From positions 3,844,001-3,908,000 of the forward strand of contig NZ_VISE01000001.1 of assembly GCF_007827275.1 (NCBI RefSeq): a DNA stretch of 64,000 nt, written 5' to 3'. The DNA comes from Gillisia sp. Hel_I_86. Its GTDB lineage: Bacteria > Bacteroidota > Bacteroidia > Flavobacteriales > Flavobacteriaceae. The notes under the pieces were generated by a model that had not been told where the DNA came from, searched no databases, and was given only the letters and a program-made list of their open reading frames with translations. Shown piece by piece: positions 3,406-9,427 of this stretch (the stretch's first letter is position 1; each line of letters begins with the position of its first letter). The position numbers and the translations under genes are program-made.

Positions 3406-4125
3406 TTAATTTATAACAAGTACAATTCCAGAAAAGAAGAGCAATACCAATAATACTTTTTTAAAGTAGAATTCATTTATTTTTGAGTACACCAATTTCC
3501 CCATGTACTGCGCCAAAAGAAATACCGGGAAGATAATCAAAGCTACTTTCCAATGAGCCAAGGTTAAAATTCCACTCACACTTAGCATGGGAATTCGCAC
3601 TAAGGTAATCAAGCCCATAATCCCTATCATCGTGGCTCGAAAGGTTTTAACATCCATCGCCATATTCTTTACAGATATTACATATAAGGGCCCACCAGTA
3701 GAAAACACTCCTGAAAAAAAACCTCCTAGAACCCCTAAGCTCATAACCAATTTTCTCCCTGCTTGAAAATCGGCTTTTATTAAAGAAACATACATAACAT
3801 ATAGGATTATAAAGATGCCCAAGGCTTTCTTGAGAAGGATAGGATTGGTGAAAGCAAGAACTAAAATTCCTATTACAACTCCCGTTATAGTTGGAATTGC
3901 CAGTCTAGATAAAATAGAGAAGTCTATGTTTTTCCATTCCTTGTTTATAAGGAAAAAACTTGAAAAAATATAGAATATGGAAATATAGGCAATAGCATCT
4001 GGAAGGGCAGCACTAAGCAATAATATGGGGAGGGCAATTAAAGAGCCCGCAAAACCTATAACAGTTTGTACAAAAAAGCCAAAAAAAATAGCTATTGCAA
4101 CAATAAGATAGAGACCTATTTCCAT
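3406..4125 (-). CDS. TSUP (TauE/SafE) family membrane exporter
   Basis: A hydrophobic protein of 239 residues (242 from a GTG three codons upstream; I prefer the ATG at 4125). It has about seven or eight membrane helices in two similar halves, including FFVQTVIGFAGSLIALPILL in the first and VLGGFFSGVFSTGGPLYVIS in the second. These glycine-rich signatures are the hallmark of the TauE/SafE (TSUP) family, which exports sulfite, sulfoacetate or similar organic anions. It is divergent from the Lrp-type gene at 4248 with 122 nt between them, so the regulator probably controls it and its ligand may be the cargo or a precursor. The substrate is unknown. Confidence 0.85.
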   Translation of the reverse strand: MEIGLYLIVAIAIFFGFFVQTVIGFAGSLIALPILLLSAALPDAIAYISIFYIFSSFFLINKEWKNIDFSILSRLAIPTITGVVIGILVLAFTNPILLKKALGIFIILYVMYVSLIKADFQAGRKLVMSLGVLGGFFSGVFSTGGPLYVISVKNMAMDVKTFRATMIGIMGLITLVRIPMLSVSGILTLAHWKVALIIFPVFLLAQYMGKLVYSKINEFYFKKVLLVLLFFSGIVLVIN

Positions 4126-4183
4126 AACAACCACATAATTTAAAACAAAATTACGTGGTCAACTATCAATTAAGAAACTTAAA

Positions 4184-4247: not shown

Positions 4248-4661
4248 ATGTTAGACATTATAGACCAAAAAATAATAGCGGTATTGCAACTAAATTCCAG
4301 GGCATCGTTTGTTGAAATTGGAAAACAAATTCCCCTTTCAGCTTCTTCTGTAAGGGAGCGTATTCAAAAATTGGAAGAGTTAGAAATCATAATGGGCTAC
4401 AGTTTAAAATTGGATCATGCTAAAATGGGATATGGCTTACAGGTCTTTATTATGATAAAATTATTTAGTGGGAAATTAAAAAGTTTCATGGAAGCTATAG
4501 ATTCTTTTCCCGAGATCAAAAGGGCTTCAAGAATAACTGGTTCCCATAATATACATATGAAGGTAGTTTTAAAAGATCAATTACATCTTCAACAATTTAT
4601 AGACAAGCTTATAAATTATGGGGAACCCACTACACATTTAATACTTTCAGAGTTAAAATAG
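4248..4661 (+). CDS. Lrp/AsnC family transcriptional regulator
   Basis: A 137-residue protein with the standard Lrp/AsnC order: an N-terminal winged HTH (residues about 1-60, LDIIDQKIIAVLQLNSRASF then SASSVRERIQKLEELEII), followed by an alpha-beta RAM effector domain (about 65-135). It lacks a long C-terminal extension, so it is near the short end of the family. Members bind amino acids or related metabolites and regulate adjacent transport genes. The divergent TSUP exporter is the obvious target, with a candidate operator at 4184-4211. Confidence 0.88.
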   Translation: MLDIIDQKIIAVLQLNSRASFVEIGKQIPLSASSVRERIQKLEELEIIMGYSLKLDHAKMGYGLQVFIMIKLFSGKLKSFMEAIDSFPEIKRASRITGSHNIHMKVVLKDQLHLQQFIDKLINYGEPTTHLILSELK

Positions 4662-5216: not shown

Positions 5217-5290
<74 letters not shown>

Positions 5291-5305
5291 CTTCCAAATA
5301 AGAAG

Positions 5306-5601: not shown

Positions 5602-7467
5602 ATGGTTTCAGACTTAACCGAAATATCAGAATTATCAGAAAAATCGATTAAGCTAATATTAACAATAGTTGAAAACGAAATTGAAATTAATGCCACGCTC
5701 CCGGGAGGAGGCGTTTTGCATATAGAGAAAGAACTTCCCTATTTAATTATTTATAGAAAGGTCCCAAATGATCCAGAAACTTATAGAATGGTCATTAGTG
5801 AGTCTTCGTATTTAATAATTGGCAACGAAGATTTTAATGGCTATCAAAAATTGTTATTGGAGCTATCCAATTTGTTATCCACAAAATTCAAGTCTTATTT
5901 ATTATTAGAGCTCTACGCCGGAGTACAAAAGAGTTCAAGTTTTGTTTTGAAAGGACCAGAAAAAAAACTGCCCACTACCCTTAAAGTGCTAAAAGAAGAA
6001 TTAGATGCCATAAACACACTTTTTTCTGGACTTTATTTAAAAACTGAAATTAAAGATACTCCTCATAGACAGGCAGCGGGACAAAAAGAGCTTTTAAGTA
6101 TTGAAGAAGCCAAACAATCTGGAGCGTTGTTATTGGGTATGGAAATCCCGCCAATCTATCGGGATGAAACTTTTAAAACCTATCCTGTCTTCTTCAGGAA
6201 TTTTAGGGATTTTATCAATAGGGCGATGCATACAGCAATTTTCGATTATATCCGGGTGCAAACATCATGTGGAGTAGCTAGTATTAATGTACTTGGCAGA
6301 AAATATTTAAAAGATAAAGTGTTCGAGATCGATAAAAAACTTGCAGAAATAGAAACCTCCTATCAATTTTTATGGCTGGTTTCCCCTGTAAACATTAATG
6401 AAATCAAGAAAACATTTCTTGAAAGTAAGTACGAGAAACTATTGGATTATCATTACCGATTGCTCCCGATAGATCCCGATGTACTTAAACGGAAACTGTA
6501 CAATCTTAAGATCGAGGATATAGACGATCCAGCAATGTCTTATCTCTTTAGGGAAAAAAGAGAAGAACTAGATCAGCAAATTAACATGTTGAGCGAGCGT
6601 GGCACCAAGAATTTCTTATATGACAGTTTGAGGCTATACCAAGGAATAGATCCTCACTTATGCAGCGAGGCAAAACAAATTCTTGAAGAAATACCAGAGG
6701 AGGTAGAAAATACTATCCCCAATACATTATTGGATAGTAAAGCATTTAGCAGTCTTGCAAGAAAGGAATTTGATTTTTTTAGAAATCAGGATGAAAATTT
6801 TAAATGCAAGGTACACATCCGCAAGGATGTGAACATCATGATGGTCTCTCAAGGGGAACTCTATATTCCAGAAGATTATAAATTAAGTGAGGTCGATGCC
6901 AAAGGACTTATTCAGCATGAAGTTGGAACCCATGTGCTCACCTATCATAACGGTTTGCAACAGCCTTTAAAACAATTAAGTATTGGACTCGCAGATTATG
7001 ATCCATTGCAAGAAGGTCTGGCTGTAATGTCAGAATATCTTGTAAATGCACTTACTCCAAACCGGTTTAGAACACTTGCAGGAAGGGTAATTGCAGGAGA
7101 AGCTGTTAAAGAAGGAGCGGGTTTTCAGGAAATTTTTAGGTTGTTAACGGCTACTTATAATTTTTCCCCGGAAAGAGCTTTTAACATCACTTCCAGGATT
7201 ATGCAGGGCGGTGGTTTTTTAAAAGATATTATTTACTTAAAAGGATTGGTGGACCTTAGAAAATATCTCCAGGAAGGTGGAGATTATGAACCTTTGCTAA
7301 CTGGAAAGTTCGCTTTAAAGCATACTCAAATTATAGCAGAGTTAACAGAACGAAATGTACTTAAAAAAGGAGCATTACGTCCAAGTTACCTATTAAATGA
7401 AGAATCAACTAAAAGAATCAAATTAATCAGGGATGGGTTACCCATCTCACAAATGATAACCAAATGA
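5602..7467 (+). CDS. DUF1704 (QEGLA-motif) metallopeptidase, MATCAP-like
   Basis: A 621-residue protein. The C-terminal half carries a zinc-peptidase motif HEVGTH at residues 439-444 and the family's QEGLA motif at 470-474, whose Glu probably supplies the third ligand. These define DUF1704. Bacterial members are usually labelled 'flavohemoglobin expression-modulating QEGLA motif protein'. The human member KIAA0895L/MATCAP removes the C-terminal tyrosine of tubulin. No signal peptide or membrane helix is seen, so the protein is probably cytosolic. Its last codons overlap the start of the ATP-grasp gene (7464) by 4 nt, a sign of translational coupling. Peptidase chemistry is inferred from the family; the bacterial substrate is unknown. 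Confidence 0.85.
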   Translation: MVSDLTEISELSEKSIKLILTIVENEIEINATLPGGGVLHIEKELPYLIIYRKVPNDPETYRMVISESSYLIIGNEDFNGYQKLLLELSNLLSTKFKSYLLLELYAGVQKSSSFVLKGPEKKLPTTLKVLKEELDAINTLFSGLYLKTEIKDTPHRQAAGQKELLSIEEAKQSGALLLGMEIPPIYRDETFKTYPVFFRNFRDFINRAMHTAIFDYIRVQTSCGVASINVLGRKYLKDKVFEIDKKLAEIETSYQFLWLVSPVNINEIKKTFLESKYEKLLDYHYRLLPIDPDVLKRKLYNLKIEDIDDPAMSYLFREKREELDQQINMLSERGTKNFLYDSLRLYQGIDPHLCSEAKQILEEIPEEVENTIPNTLLDSKAFSSLARKEFDFFRNQDENFKCKVHIRKDVNIMMVSQGELYIPEDYKLSEVDAKGLIQHEVGTHVLTYHNGLQQPLKQLSIGLADYDPLQEGLAVMSEYLVNALTPNRFRTLAGRVIAGEAVKEGAGFQEIFRLLTATYNFSPERAFNITSRIMQGGGFLKDIIYLKGLVDLRKYLQEGGDYEPLLTGKFALKHTQIIAELTERNVLKKGALRPSYLLNEESTKRIKLIRDGLPISQMITK

Positions 7468-8513
7468 AAATATGTTTTGTAGTAAATGGTATAGATACAG
7501 AAACTTGTGGCACCACAGTTTATATTATGTTTGAAGCTTTAAAAAGAAAGCATGAAGTGCATATGATGGGGGTTGGGGATTTTAACTTTAAACATGATGA
7601 AACCATAAGCATCAATAGTGTGTCCATATCCAAAAATGGAGATCCAAAGACCCCGGAAGAATATTTGGAATTGTTGCAAAGTGATAAGGCTAAAAAGAAG
7701 ACGATTTTGGCAAACGATCTGGATGTGCTGTTTATAAGGAACAATCCTACGGAAGAAGGTGGTTCCAGACAATGGGCAGAACAAGCGGGAGTTGCTTTTG
7801 GAAGAATGATCCAGCAAGAAGGCGTGTTGGTTTTAAATGATGCCTATGCCCTATCCAATGCATTTATTGATAAACTTTATTTTGAAGAGCTTCCCAGCAG
7901 TATTAAACCAGCTTCAATAATTACCAGAAAAAAGGAAGATATTATAAACTTTTTTGAAACTCATAAAAAGAAAATGGTTTTAAAGCCTTTGGAAGGTTCT
8001 GGAGGCCGGGATGTGTATTTGATAGATAAAAACGAAAAAAACTTAAATCAGATTATAGAAAACATCACCCAGCAGGGTTACGTGATCGCTCAAGAATTTC
8101 TTCCCGCAGTTAAGGATGGTGATGTCCGTGTTTTGCTCATGAACGGTCGGGTAATGGAAAAAGATGGGACTTACGGTATAATTCGTCGGGTTGCCGGCGA
8201 AGGGGAATTTAGAAGCAATTTTTCTCAAGGAGCCTCTGCAGATAGCAGTCCACTTACTGATGCTATGAAAAAGATCATAGATATCACCGCTCCAAAACTA
8301 ATTAGGGATGGTTTGTTTTTTGTTGGCTTGGATATAGTAAAAGATAAATTAATCGAGATCAATGTATTAAGCCCGGGAGGTTTGGACCATTTTAAAGATA
8401 TAGGTTTGCCAGATTTTAGTGACGTAATCGTAAAATCTATCGAGAAAAAAGTGGAGTATAAAAGATTATATGGTAATTCGATTTCCAACAGGGAATTAGC
8501 GACCATGGCATAA
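7464..8513 (+). CDS. ATP-grasp ligase, glutathione synthase-like
   Basis: A 349-residue protein with GshB-like architecture: an N-terminal MKICFVVNGIDTETCGTT domain, an ATP-binding KPLEGSGGRDVYLID loop at about residue 173, a REFRSN-type Mg/phosphate segment (GEGEFRSNFSQGA), and EINVLSPGG near residue 298 supplying metal ligands. GshB joins glycine to gamma-glutamylcysteine, and related enzymes form other peptide or amide bonds. No gshA-type glutamate-cysteine ligase is nearby, so glutathione is not assured as the product. It overlaps the DUF1704 gene by 4 nt and is followed 14 nt later by the desuccinylase-like gene. All three are probably made together. Confidence 0.85.
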   Translation: MKICFVVNGIDTETCGTTVYIMFEALKRKHEVHMMGVGDFNFKHDETISINSVSISKNGDPKTPEEYLELLQSDKAKKKTILANDLDVLFIRNNPTEEGGSRQWAEQAGVAFGRMIQQEGVLVLNDAYALSNAFIDKLYFEELPSSIKPASIITRKKEDIINFFETHKKKMVLKPLEGSGGRDVYLIDKNEKNLNQIIENITQQGYVIAQEFLPAVKDGDVRVLLMNGRVMEKDGTYGIIRRVAGEGEFRSNFSQGASADSSPLTDAMKKIIDITAPKLIRDGLFFVGLDIVKDKLIEINVLSPGGLDHFKDIGLPDFSDVIVKSIEKKVEYKRLYGNSISNRELATMA

Positions 8514-8527
8514 TTAAATTTTGAAAT

Positions 8528-9427
8528 ATGGAAAATAGTTCCAGAATAATAGGAAAATATTCAAGCGAAAAAAAAGGCCCACTATTATTTATAACTGCCG
8601 GGGTTCATGGAAATGAACCTTCCGGGGTCGAGGCCTTAAAAAGGGTATTTAAAGCCTTGGATCATTCCAAACCTACCATAAACGGGTGTATAGTTGGAGT
8701 CCTTGGAAATGAAGCTGCTCTAGCGAAAAATGTGCGATATATAGATGAAGACCTAAATAGAACCTGGACAGAAGTAAATATCAGTGAACAAAAACAAGAA
8801 ACAAATGAGCAGAAGGAAATGTTCGAAATCATCGAGATTTTGGAACAATTTCCAGAATCCGATTTTTCCAAACGCTATTTTATGGATTGTCATACAACCT
8901 CTTCAGATAGTTTGCCCTATGTTTCTGTGCAATTAGTAAATGACAATAATGAATGGGCACATAATTTCCCTACCTATATTGTCCAGGGATTTAGCGACAT
9001 AGTTTATGGGGCGATAGATCATTATTTTAGTCGAATCGGCTTAACTGGTTTTACTTTTGAAGCCGGACAACATACCAGTAAAACGTCTGTGGAAAACCAT
9101 GAAGGAATAATTTGGCTGGCCCTTAAAGAGGCTTGTAATTTGGACCTTTCGCAAATACCCGAATATCCCTTATGTGTAGAAAAATTTTCAGTTAAAAATG
9201 CACCAGATCAAAAAACCTTTAAAATTATTTATAGACACGGACTTCAAGAAAATGATGCCTTCGAAATGAAATCTGGATTCAAAAATTTTCAGAAAATTTA
9301 TGAAGGGGATCTATTGGCCATACAAAATGGCAAAGAAATAAAGAGTGAATGGGATGCACGAATCTTTATGCCGCTTTACCAATCCCAAGGAAATGATGGC
9401 TTTTTTGTAATTGAGGAAGTAAAGTGA
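8528..9427 (+). CDS. succinylglutamate desuccinylase/aspartoacylase family hydrolase
   Basis: A 299-residue zinc hydrolase of the AstE/AspA group (M14 carboxypeptidase fold). Visible metal and substrate motifs are GVHGNEPSG near residue 24 (H and E ligands), DLNRTW near residue 77 and DCHTTSSDS near residue 120, plus a late TFEAGQH segment holding the likely catalytic Glu. Known members release an acid from N-acyl amino acids (N-succinylglutamate, N-acetylaspartate). No other arginine-succinyltransferase-pathway genes are present, so the native substrate is probably something else. It is the third gene of the DUF1704/ATP-grasp unit. A 139-bp mobile element is inserted just past its stop. Confidence 0.85.
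   Translation: MENSSRIIGKYSSEKKGPLLFITAGVHGNEPSGVEALKRVFKALDHSKPTINGCIVGVLGNEAALAKNVRYIDEDLNRTWTEVNISEQKQETNEQKEMFEIIEILEQFPESDFSKRYFMDCHTTSSDSLPYVSVQLVNDNNEWAHNFPTYIVQGFSDIVYGAIDHYFSRIGLTGFTFEAGQHTSKTSVENHEGIIWLALKEACNLDLSQIPEYPLCVEKFSVKNAPDQKTFKIIYRHGLQENDAFEMKSGFKNFQKIYEGDLLAIQNGKEIKSEWDARIFMPLYQSQGNDGFFVIEEVK

Follow-up and report, generated by a model that had tools for sequence, protein, structure and literature searches.

Several described systems resemble the locus reported here. In the S6 glutamylation system, RimK modifies and RimB removes the glutamates of RpsF (PMC11957791). The human enzymes MATCAP1/TMCP1 and TMCP2 (KIAA0895L, KIAA0895) belong to a family that strips C-terminal Tyr and Glu residues and deglutamylates tubulin (PMC10499314). 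The Rlo operon of Pseudomonas aeruginosa, which has a protease and an ATP-grasp pair, has been tied to hypo-osmotic stress (PMC12239564). In the window, as we call the 64,000-nucleotide stretch of Gillisia sp. Hel_I_86 DNA analyzed here (contig NZ_VISE01000001.1, positions 3,844,001 to 3,908,000), a three-gene unit, A-B-C, encodes a MATCAP-type metallopeptidase, a GshB-like ATP-grasp ligase and an AstE/AspA-type hydrolase. We read this unit as a cytoplasmic add-and-trim cassette of three enzymes, a functional analogue of RimK/RimB that would act most likely on an acidic residue, and we give this reading an even chance.

The three open reading frames (ORFs) follow one another head to tail on the + strand at positions 5602-9427, in exactly the layout described by an initial annotation made from the letters alone. 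Gene A (5602..7467, 621 residues) overlaps gene B (7464..8513, 349 residues) by 4 nucleotides, and 14 nucleotides separate B from gene C (8528..9427, 299 residues). As in the RimK/RimB system, an ATP-grasp ligase, a peptidase and an AstE/AspA hydrolase stand in one gene run, but the peptidase is MATCAP-type rather than a retropepsin-like RimB (Pfam does not find PF05618 among A, B and C) and the ligase is GshB-like rather than RimK. A protease and ATP-grasp pair is also common to the unit and the Rlo operon; Rlo differs in its secreted retropepsin-like enzyme and its membrane transglutaminase-like protein, and the available text of its description does not mention DUF1704 (PMC12239564).

The genome that carries the window also holds a RimB-like PF05618 protease, RimK and an AstE/AspA-like protein in one gene run (L131:1942-4227; L and G numbers are our handles for loci and genomes) and, in a separate cluster (L033:443-3821), an RLAN-RimK ligase with a GCS2 ligase and an N-formylglutamate amidohydrolase (FGase). 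Because both clusters occur in this genome, a ligase combined with a peptidase and/or an N-acyl hydrolase is a repeated theme in it, and the trio of RimB, RimK and AstE/AspA leads us to read A-B-C as a second cassette of this add-and-trim type. The full RimB-RimK-AstE/AspA trio was seen in 5 of 10 RimK-type loci, and additionally in L130; these loci were picked partly for an adjoining AstE/AspA-like match, and the count is not an unbiased frequency.

Recurrence of the Unit in Other Genomes

The proposal that DUF1704 genes have a constant ATP-grasp partner was borne out by a survey of gene neighborhoods. A scan of GTDB genomes gave at least 571 confirmed relatives of A, of which we kept the best 80, a sample that leans to near kin. 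A and B occur together in 78 of these 80 loci, and in 76 of them B lies downstream on the same strand within 400 nucleotides, most commonly with a 4-nucleotide overlap. In the two exceptions to the pairing (L068 and L104), the contig ends 18 and 7 bases after A. In L087 the neighboring B copy has the opposite orientation, and L112 carries three A and three B genes, the nearest downstream B being 768 nucleotides from the counted A. Tandem A-B pairs, two or three in number, are present in L094, L095 and L112 and suggest diversified substrates.

A less biased picture comes from an even sample of 296 Bacteroidota genomes, where 20 kb or the whole contig was examined around 15 loci other than that of the window. 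The B family was present in 14 of these, an FGase homologue accompanied B in 11, C was found in 2, and one (L021) has an FGase-MATCAP fusion. B was downstream within 400 nucleotides in nine loci, and an ATP-grasp gene was upstream in five. An SDF symporter adjoins the unit in six of the 15 by clustering, four of them recognized by Pfam; the best NCBIfam match of the L022 symporter is the glutamate/aspartate carrier GltP, below the cut-off of that model.

By record title, the tree of A reaches Bacteroidota, Balneolota, Gemmatimonadota, Acidobacteriota, Myxococcota, Poribacteria, Planctomycetota, Verrucomicrobiota, Kiritimatiellota, Calditrichota, Campylobacterota and Pseudomonadota; many of its rows are metagenome bins, whose organism labels are those of the records. 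On two rhizobial plasmids the genes come in the order FGase, QEGLA protein, and "glutathione synthase/synthetase." The annotation table of S. meliloti pSymB has only the FGase and QEGLA genes, yet a B-family frame is present. Distances in the A and B trees correlate with an r of 0.918 over 90 rows, a value that includes shared species history, compared with at most 0.21 in 500 shuffles. The association of A with B, and with a third gene where there is one, is real.

Gene A Encodes a MATCAP-Type Metallopeptidase with an FGase-Like Domain

The MATCAP domain (PF08014) covers residues 270-607 of A (5.8e-81, 272.7 bits for a gathering score of 27). Both motifs that the initial annotation had read in this protein are there, HEVGTH at residues 439-444 (6916..6933, an HExxxH metal-binding motif) and QEGLA at residues 470-474 (7009..7023), and the metal ligands have been retained rather than lost: all 55 aligned A sequences have H439, E440 and H444 as well as E471 and E478. 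The counterpart of the QEGLA region in an alignment with human MATCAP is EEG, and E471 is probably the third metal ligand. HExxxH is found in the human enzymes, in which the Glu of EEG is the putative third ligand (PMC10499314).

The likeness to MATCAP extends to the predicted structure. In a Foldseek search with the AlphaFold model of A, whose predicted local distance difference test score (pLDDT) is 93.6, the five best PDB matches are all human MATCAP chains, headed by 7z5g (E 3.1e-9, template modeling score 0.71 by target length); matches beyond MATCAP are weak (E of 0.005 or more), the part of A that they cover is not displayed, and we give them no weight. Thus, A has in common with MATCAP1/TMCP1 and TMCP2 the PF08014 domain, the HExxxH motif with a third Glu and the fold. 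It differs from them in being only 16-18% identical (Foldseek), in its extra degenerate FGase-like domain, and in being encoded beside a ligase. By its kept metal ligands and a model that matches human MATCAP, A is a MATCAP-type metallopeptidase, with predicted carboxypeptidase activity. Its closest relatives among the matches listed are labeled Gillisia (89 and 86%). A partial MATCAP-like match was also seen in a phage record, that of Pseudomonas phage Y1 (OQ572403.1:63533-64072).

The N-terminal domain of A was missed in the initial annotation and is new here. Residues 1-248 (5602..6345) align with the partner FGase family in hhalign with a probability of 76% (E 2.3e-5) and a score of 40.2, whereas 60 column shuffles reached no more than 20.2 and the reversed profile 16.0; control comparisons of the same region with the profiles of B and C were negative. 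Its most conserved His is found in only 30 of 51 rows, so that the domain has no conserved metal-binding histidines. In L021 and in the Photobacterium locus L118, Pfam finds an intact FGase domain fused to the MATCAP domain at the same place. Across 55 A sequences, Pfam detects an FGase-like N-terminal domain in only one, by its E-value the L021 fusion; for window-type A, the assignment is based on the profile-profile comparison and the shuffles. The first 250 residues of A look like a degenerate FGase domain. Given the alignment, the missing histidines and the intact fused domains of L021 and L118, window-type A looks like a fusion with a dead FGase half, the activity of which a separate FGase or C would supply.

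Gene B Encodes a GshB-Like ATP-Grasp Ligase

B has the GSH-S domains of Pfam (GSH-S_ATP, 2e-48) and matches E. coli GshB at 8.3e-34, which places it in the same ATP-grasp family as glutathione synthetase. It passes NF009110, the model of the PRK12458 "glutathione synthetase" subfamily (429.7 bits, cut-off 408), but does not reach the cut-off of either glutathione synthase equivalog model (193.5 vs. 272 and 186.6 vs. 299.05 bits). The RimK equivalog model is far from matched (33.2 vs. 331 bits). We consider B a putative amino-acid ligase.

Gene C Stands Where Other Lineages Have an FGase

The initial annotation recognized C as an AstE/AspA-type hydrolase and compared it with M14-fold enzymes that trim tails. 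C is of the N-acyl-amino-acid hydrolase type, not a tail-trimming M14 carboxypeptidase, and occupies the position that an FGase homologue has in other lineages. Pfam finds AstE_AspA_cat (PF24827) in it at 2.9e-20 (73.1 bits, cut-off 25). Residues H27, E30, N77, R78, H122 and E178 are invariant in 23 sequences; we take H27 and E30 (HxxE) with H122 to be the metal ligands and assign the DLNR motif and the catalytic Glu their AstE/AspA roles. The AlphaFold model of C (pLDDT 90.7) matches the AstE structures 2bco (E 1.5e-13) and 1yw6 (2.3e-13), as well as structures of aspartoacylase, EutE and CphZ. Although C shares catalytic residues and fold with the succinylglutamate desuccinylase AstE, the aspartoacylase AspA and CphZ, it scores far below the cut-offs of the AstE model (TIGR03242, 58.2 vs. 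305.65 bits) and the aspartoacylase model.

The third gene of the 80 loci is C in 39 and an FGase homologue in 31, and no locus has both. The FGase homologue, seen for example in several Pontibacter loci, is upstream of A on the same strand in 30 of its 31 loci. Its subfamily is present in 12 of 16 Bacteroidota genomes searched whole, the exceptions being the C-type genomes G000, G053 and G273 and also G186; it is absent from the unit of the window and from the whole genome around it, where another FGase (PF05013) lies in a separate cluster. On the tree of A (81 labeled of 90 rows), a single change accounts for C versus FGase. Rooted at the midpoint, this quick FastTree tree nests C among FGase lineages, with a branch support of 93.

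We also considered FGase and C as close relatives and rejected this, a profile comparison giving a probability of only 5.7%; for that reason we do not claim that the replacement is orthologous. FGase and the AstE/AspA families both act on N-acyl derivatives of acidic amino acids. Because both families handle such substrates, the same reaction was probably retained when one enzyme took the place of the other.

Proposed Function of the Unit

We propose that B would couple an amino acid, in the likeliest case glutamate or another acidic residue, to the carboxyl terminus of a peptide, a protein tail or an acylated amino acid at the expense of ATP. A would remove C-terminal residues as a metallo-carboxypeptidase, and its degenerate FGase-like domain would probably help it to dock or to bind the substrate. 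C, which takes the place of the FGase of other lineages, would release the terminal acidic residue as a free amino acid by hydrolyzing its N-acyl or dipeptide bond. The site of action would be the cytoplasm; inspection of the unit proteins by eye, with no predictor used, showed no signal peptide. We assign to B the addition and to A the trimming of an acidic residue at a carboxyl terminus because of the Rim clusters in the same genome, the chemistry of RimK/RimB and a joint induction in Photobacterium damselae, in which, at 1% NaCl, neighboring genes labeled GshB and QEGLA were up 38- and 27-fold and RimK 52-fold (PMC10308900). An add-and-trim cycle had already been suggested for this locus. 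That general idea is strengthened by the RimB-RimK-AstE/AspA trio; the results show no tyrosine or tubulin-like terminus.

Several observations weigh against the cassette. It is sparse, since PF08014 is found in 16 of the 296 Bacteroidota genomes, counting the one that carries the window, and the divergent DUF1704 loci L017 and L117 are without B, L017 having no partner at all. Neither deacylase is present in 10 of the 80 loci, among them L084, L103, L108 and L111 with about 10 kb on both sides; several others of the ten are short contigs. Seven FGase-type genomes hold a moderately similar C-like protein away from the unit, at 226-288 bits as against 432-542 bits for the C proteins inside the units of the three C-type genomes, and the mutual exclusion of FGase and C therefore applies to the gene cluster and not to the genome. 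Since B resembles GshB more closely than RimK, a small thiol peptide could be its acceptor. Two related loci (L022:12216-13037 and L025:7370-8209) have a rhodanese gene within the operon; that of L022 is most like 3-mercaptopyruvate sulfurtransferase, under the cut-off of that model. The link between the P. damselae genes and the unit consists solely of their names and consecutive locus tags. Finally, searches of the open-licence literature, with most subscription papers outside their scope, showed no reported activity, substrate or product for any bacterial member and no paper on the bacterial unit, the sole mention seen being an expression table of PMC10308900.

Alternative Explanations

Some of these observations would fit an alternative that is less probable than the cassette, yet has a substantial chance of being correct: the product could be a small peptide metabolite, such as a redox, storage or osmotic di- or tripeptide, with B as its synthetase, A and C as salvage hydrolases, and no protein modified. 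B resembles the small-molecule ligase GshB, the model of C matches CphZ, which is a cyanophycin-dipeptide hydrolase, the rhodanese gene and the SDF symporter are found in two and six related loci, respectively, and the Photobacterium genes respond to salinity (PMC10308900). Nevertheless, the human relatives of A work on protein tails (PMC10499314). Moreover, once A, B, FGase and C are set aside, no neighbor family of at least 100 residues occurs within 6 kb in more than 13 of 95 loci (filtered ORFs), and so no constant extra ligase or transporter is seen near the trio.

A bolder version of the add-and-trim cassette, which we consider rather unlikely, is an undescribed cycle at the C-terminus of a bacterial protein. 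The GshB-like ligase would add and the MATCAP-type carboxypeptidase remove residues, in analogy to tubulin tyrosination/detyrosination and glutamylation, and eukaryotic MATCAP might descend from such a system.

ATP-grasp ligases and peptidases are common in peptide natural-product clusters, and the tandem A-B pairs of L094, L095 and L112 would also suit a role of B as peptide ligase and of A and C in maturing the product. We judge such a pathway improbable in view of the same neighborhood survey, in which no further family of at least 100 residues exceeded 13 of 95 loci, short precursor peptides not having been searched for.

Still less credible is that B is the glutathione synthetase of the cell, with A and C as incidental neighbors, even though public annotation calls B homologues glutathione synthase or synthetase and a GCS2-family match is present in 7 of the 16 A-bearing Bacteroidota genomes, that of the window among them. 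The genome has a canonical glutathione synthase elsewhere (415 bits, cut-off 272), clustered with a GCS2 ligase; for this reason the alternative raised in the initial annotation, glutathione synthesis by B with a distant gshA, is unsupported. The GCS2 protein itself scores 167.8 and 157.9 bits, below the cut-offs of two glutamate-cysteine ligase models. Searches for three gshA families gave no GCS2 match in 9 of the 16 A-bearing genomes, no PF04262 in any of the 16, and no PF08886 in any of them, the control of this last search being silent. The canonical copy carries SPTC, whereas the B family has SPG[GA] in 84 of 90 sequences (SPGG in the window) and SPT[CG] in 0 of 90. B is probably not the glutathione synthetase. 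The canonical cluster (L128:4491-8702) has genes for a DNase II-like protein (PF03265) and a HAD-like protein (weak Pfam match) interspersed with gshB and the GCS2 gene, and it lies on the downstream side of a gene for an AAA/GAF/nucleotide-cyclase protein.

Least plausible of all is a role of the unit in regulating flavohemoglobin expression, which the name of NCBIfam model TIGR02421 ("flavohemoglobin expression-modulating QEGLA") implies: A formally falls outside the label, with 299.5 bits for a cut-off of 338.65, searches of the open-licence literature by label, DUF1704 and QEGLA motif showed no paper on such a function, and B and C are left unexplained, as the initial annotation, which had given the label as the current one, already pointed out.

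Genes around the Unit

Upstream of the unit in the window are a tRNA-Arg (5217-5291) and a divergent pair formed by a TauE/SafE exporter (3406-4134, - strand) and an Lrp/AsnC-type regulator (4248-4661, + strand). Further upstream, a 186-residue protein (1448-2008, + strand) matches the Pycsar effector PycTM (PF18967, 1e-16; PADLOC, 4.4e-28). A role of the A-B-C unit itself in anti-phage defense was considered and rejected because A, B and C match no PADLOC model at an E of 0.01. Outside this genome, the DUF1704 gene of L117 adjoins a redoxin gene and is near an AbgT transporter gene.

Significance

A trio conserved across many bacterial phyla now bears two misleading names, those of a flavohemoglobin modulator and of a glutathione synthetase. 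The parts of the trio, their order and a single clean swap of enzymes suggest that it carries out a defined reaction on an acidic residue. Should a protein tail be the target, the unit would give a eukaryotic tubulin-code enzyme its counterpart in bacteria and perhaps its origin.

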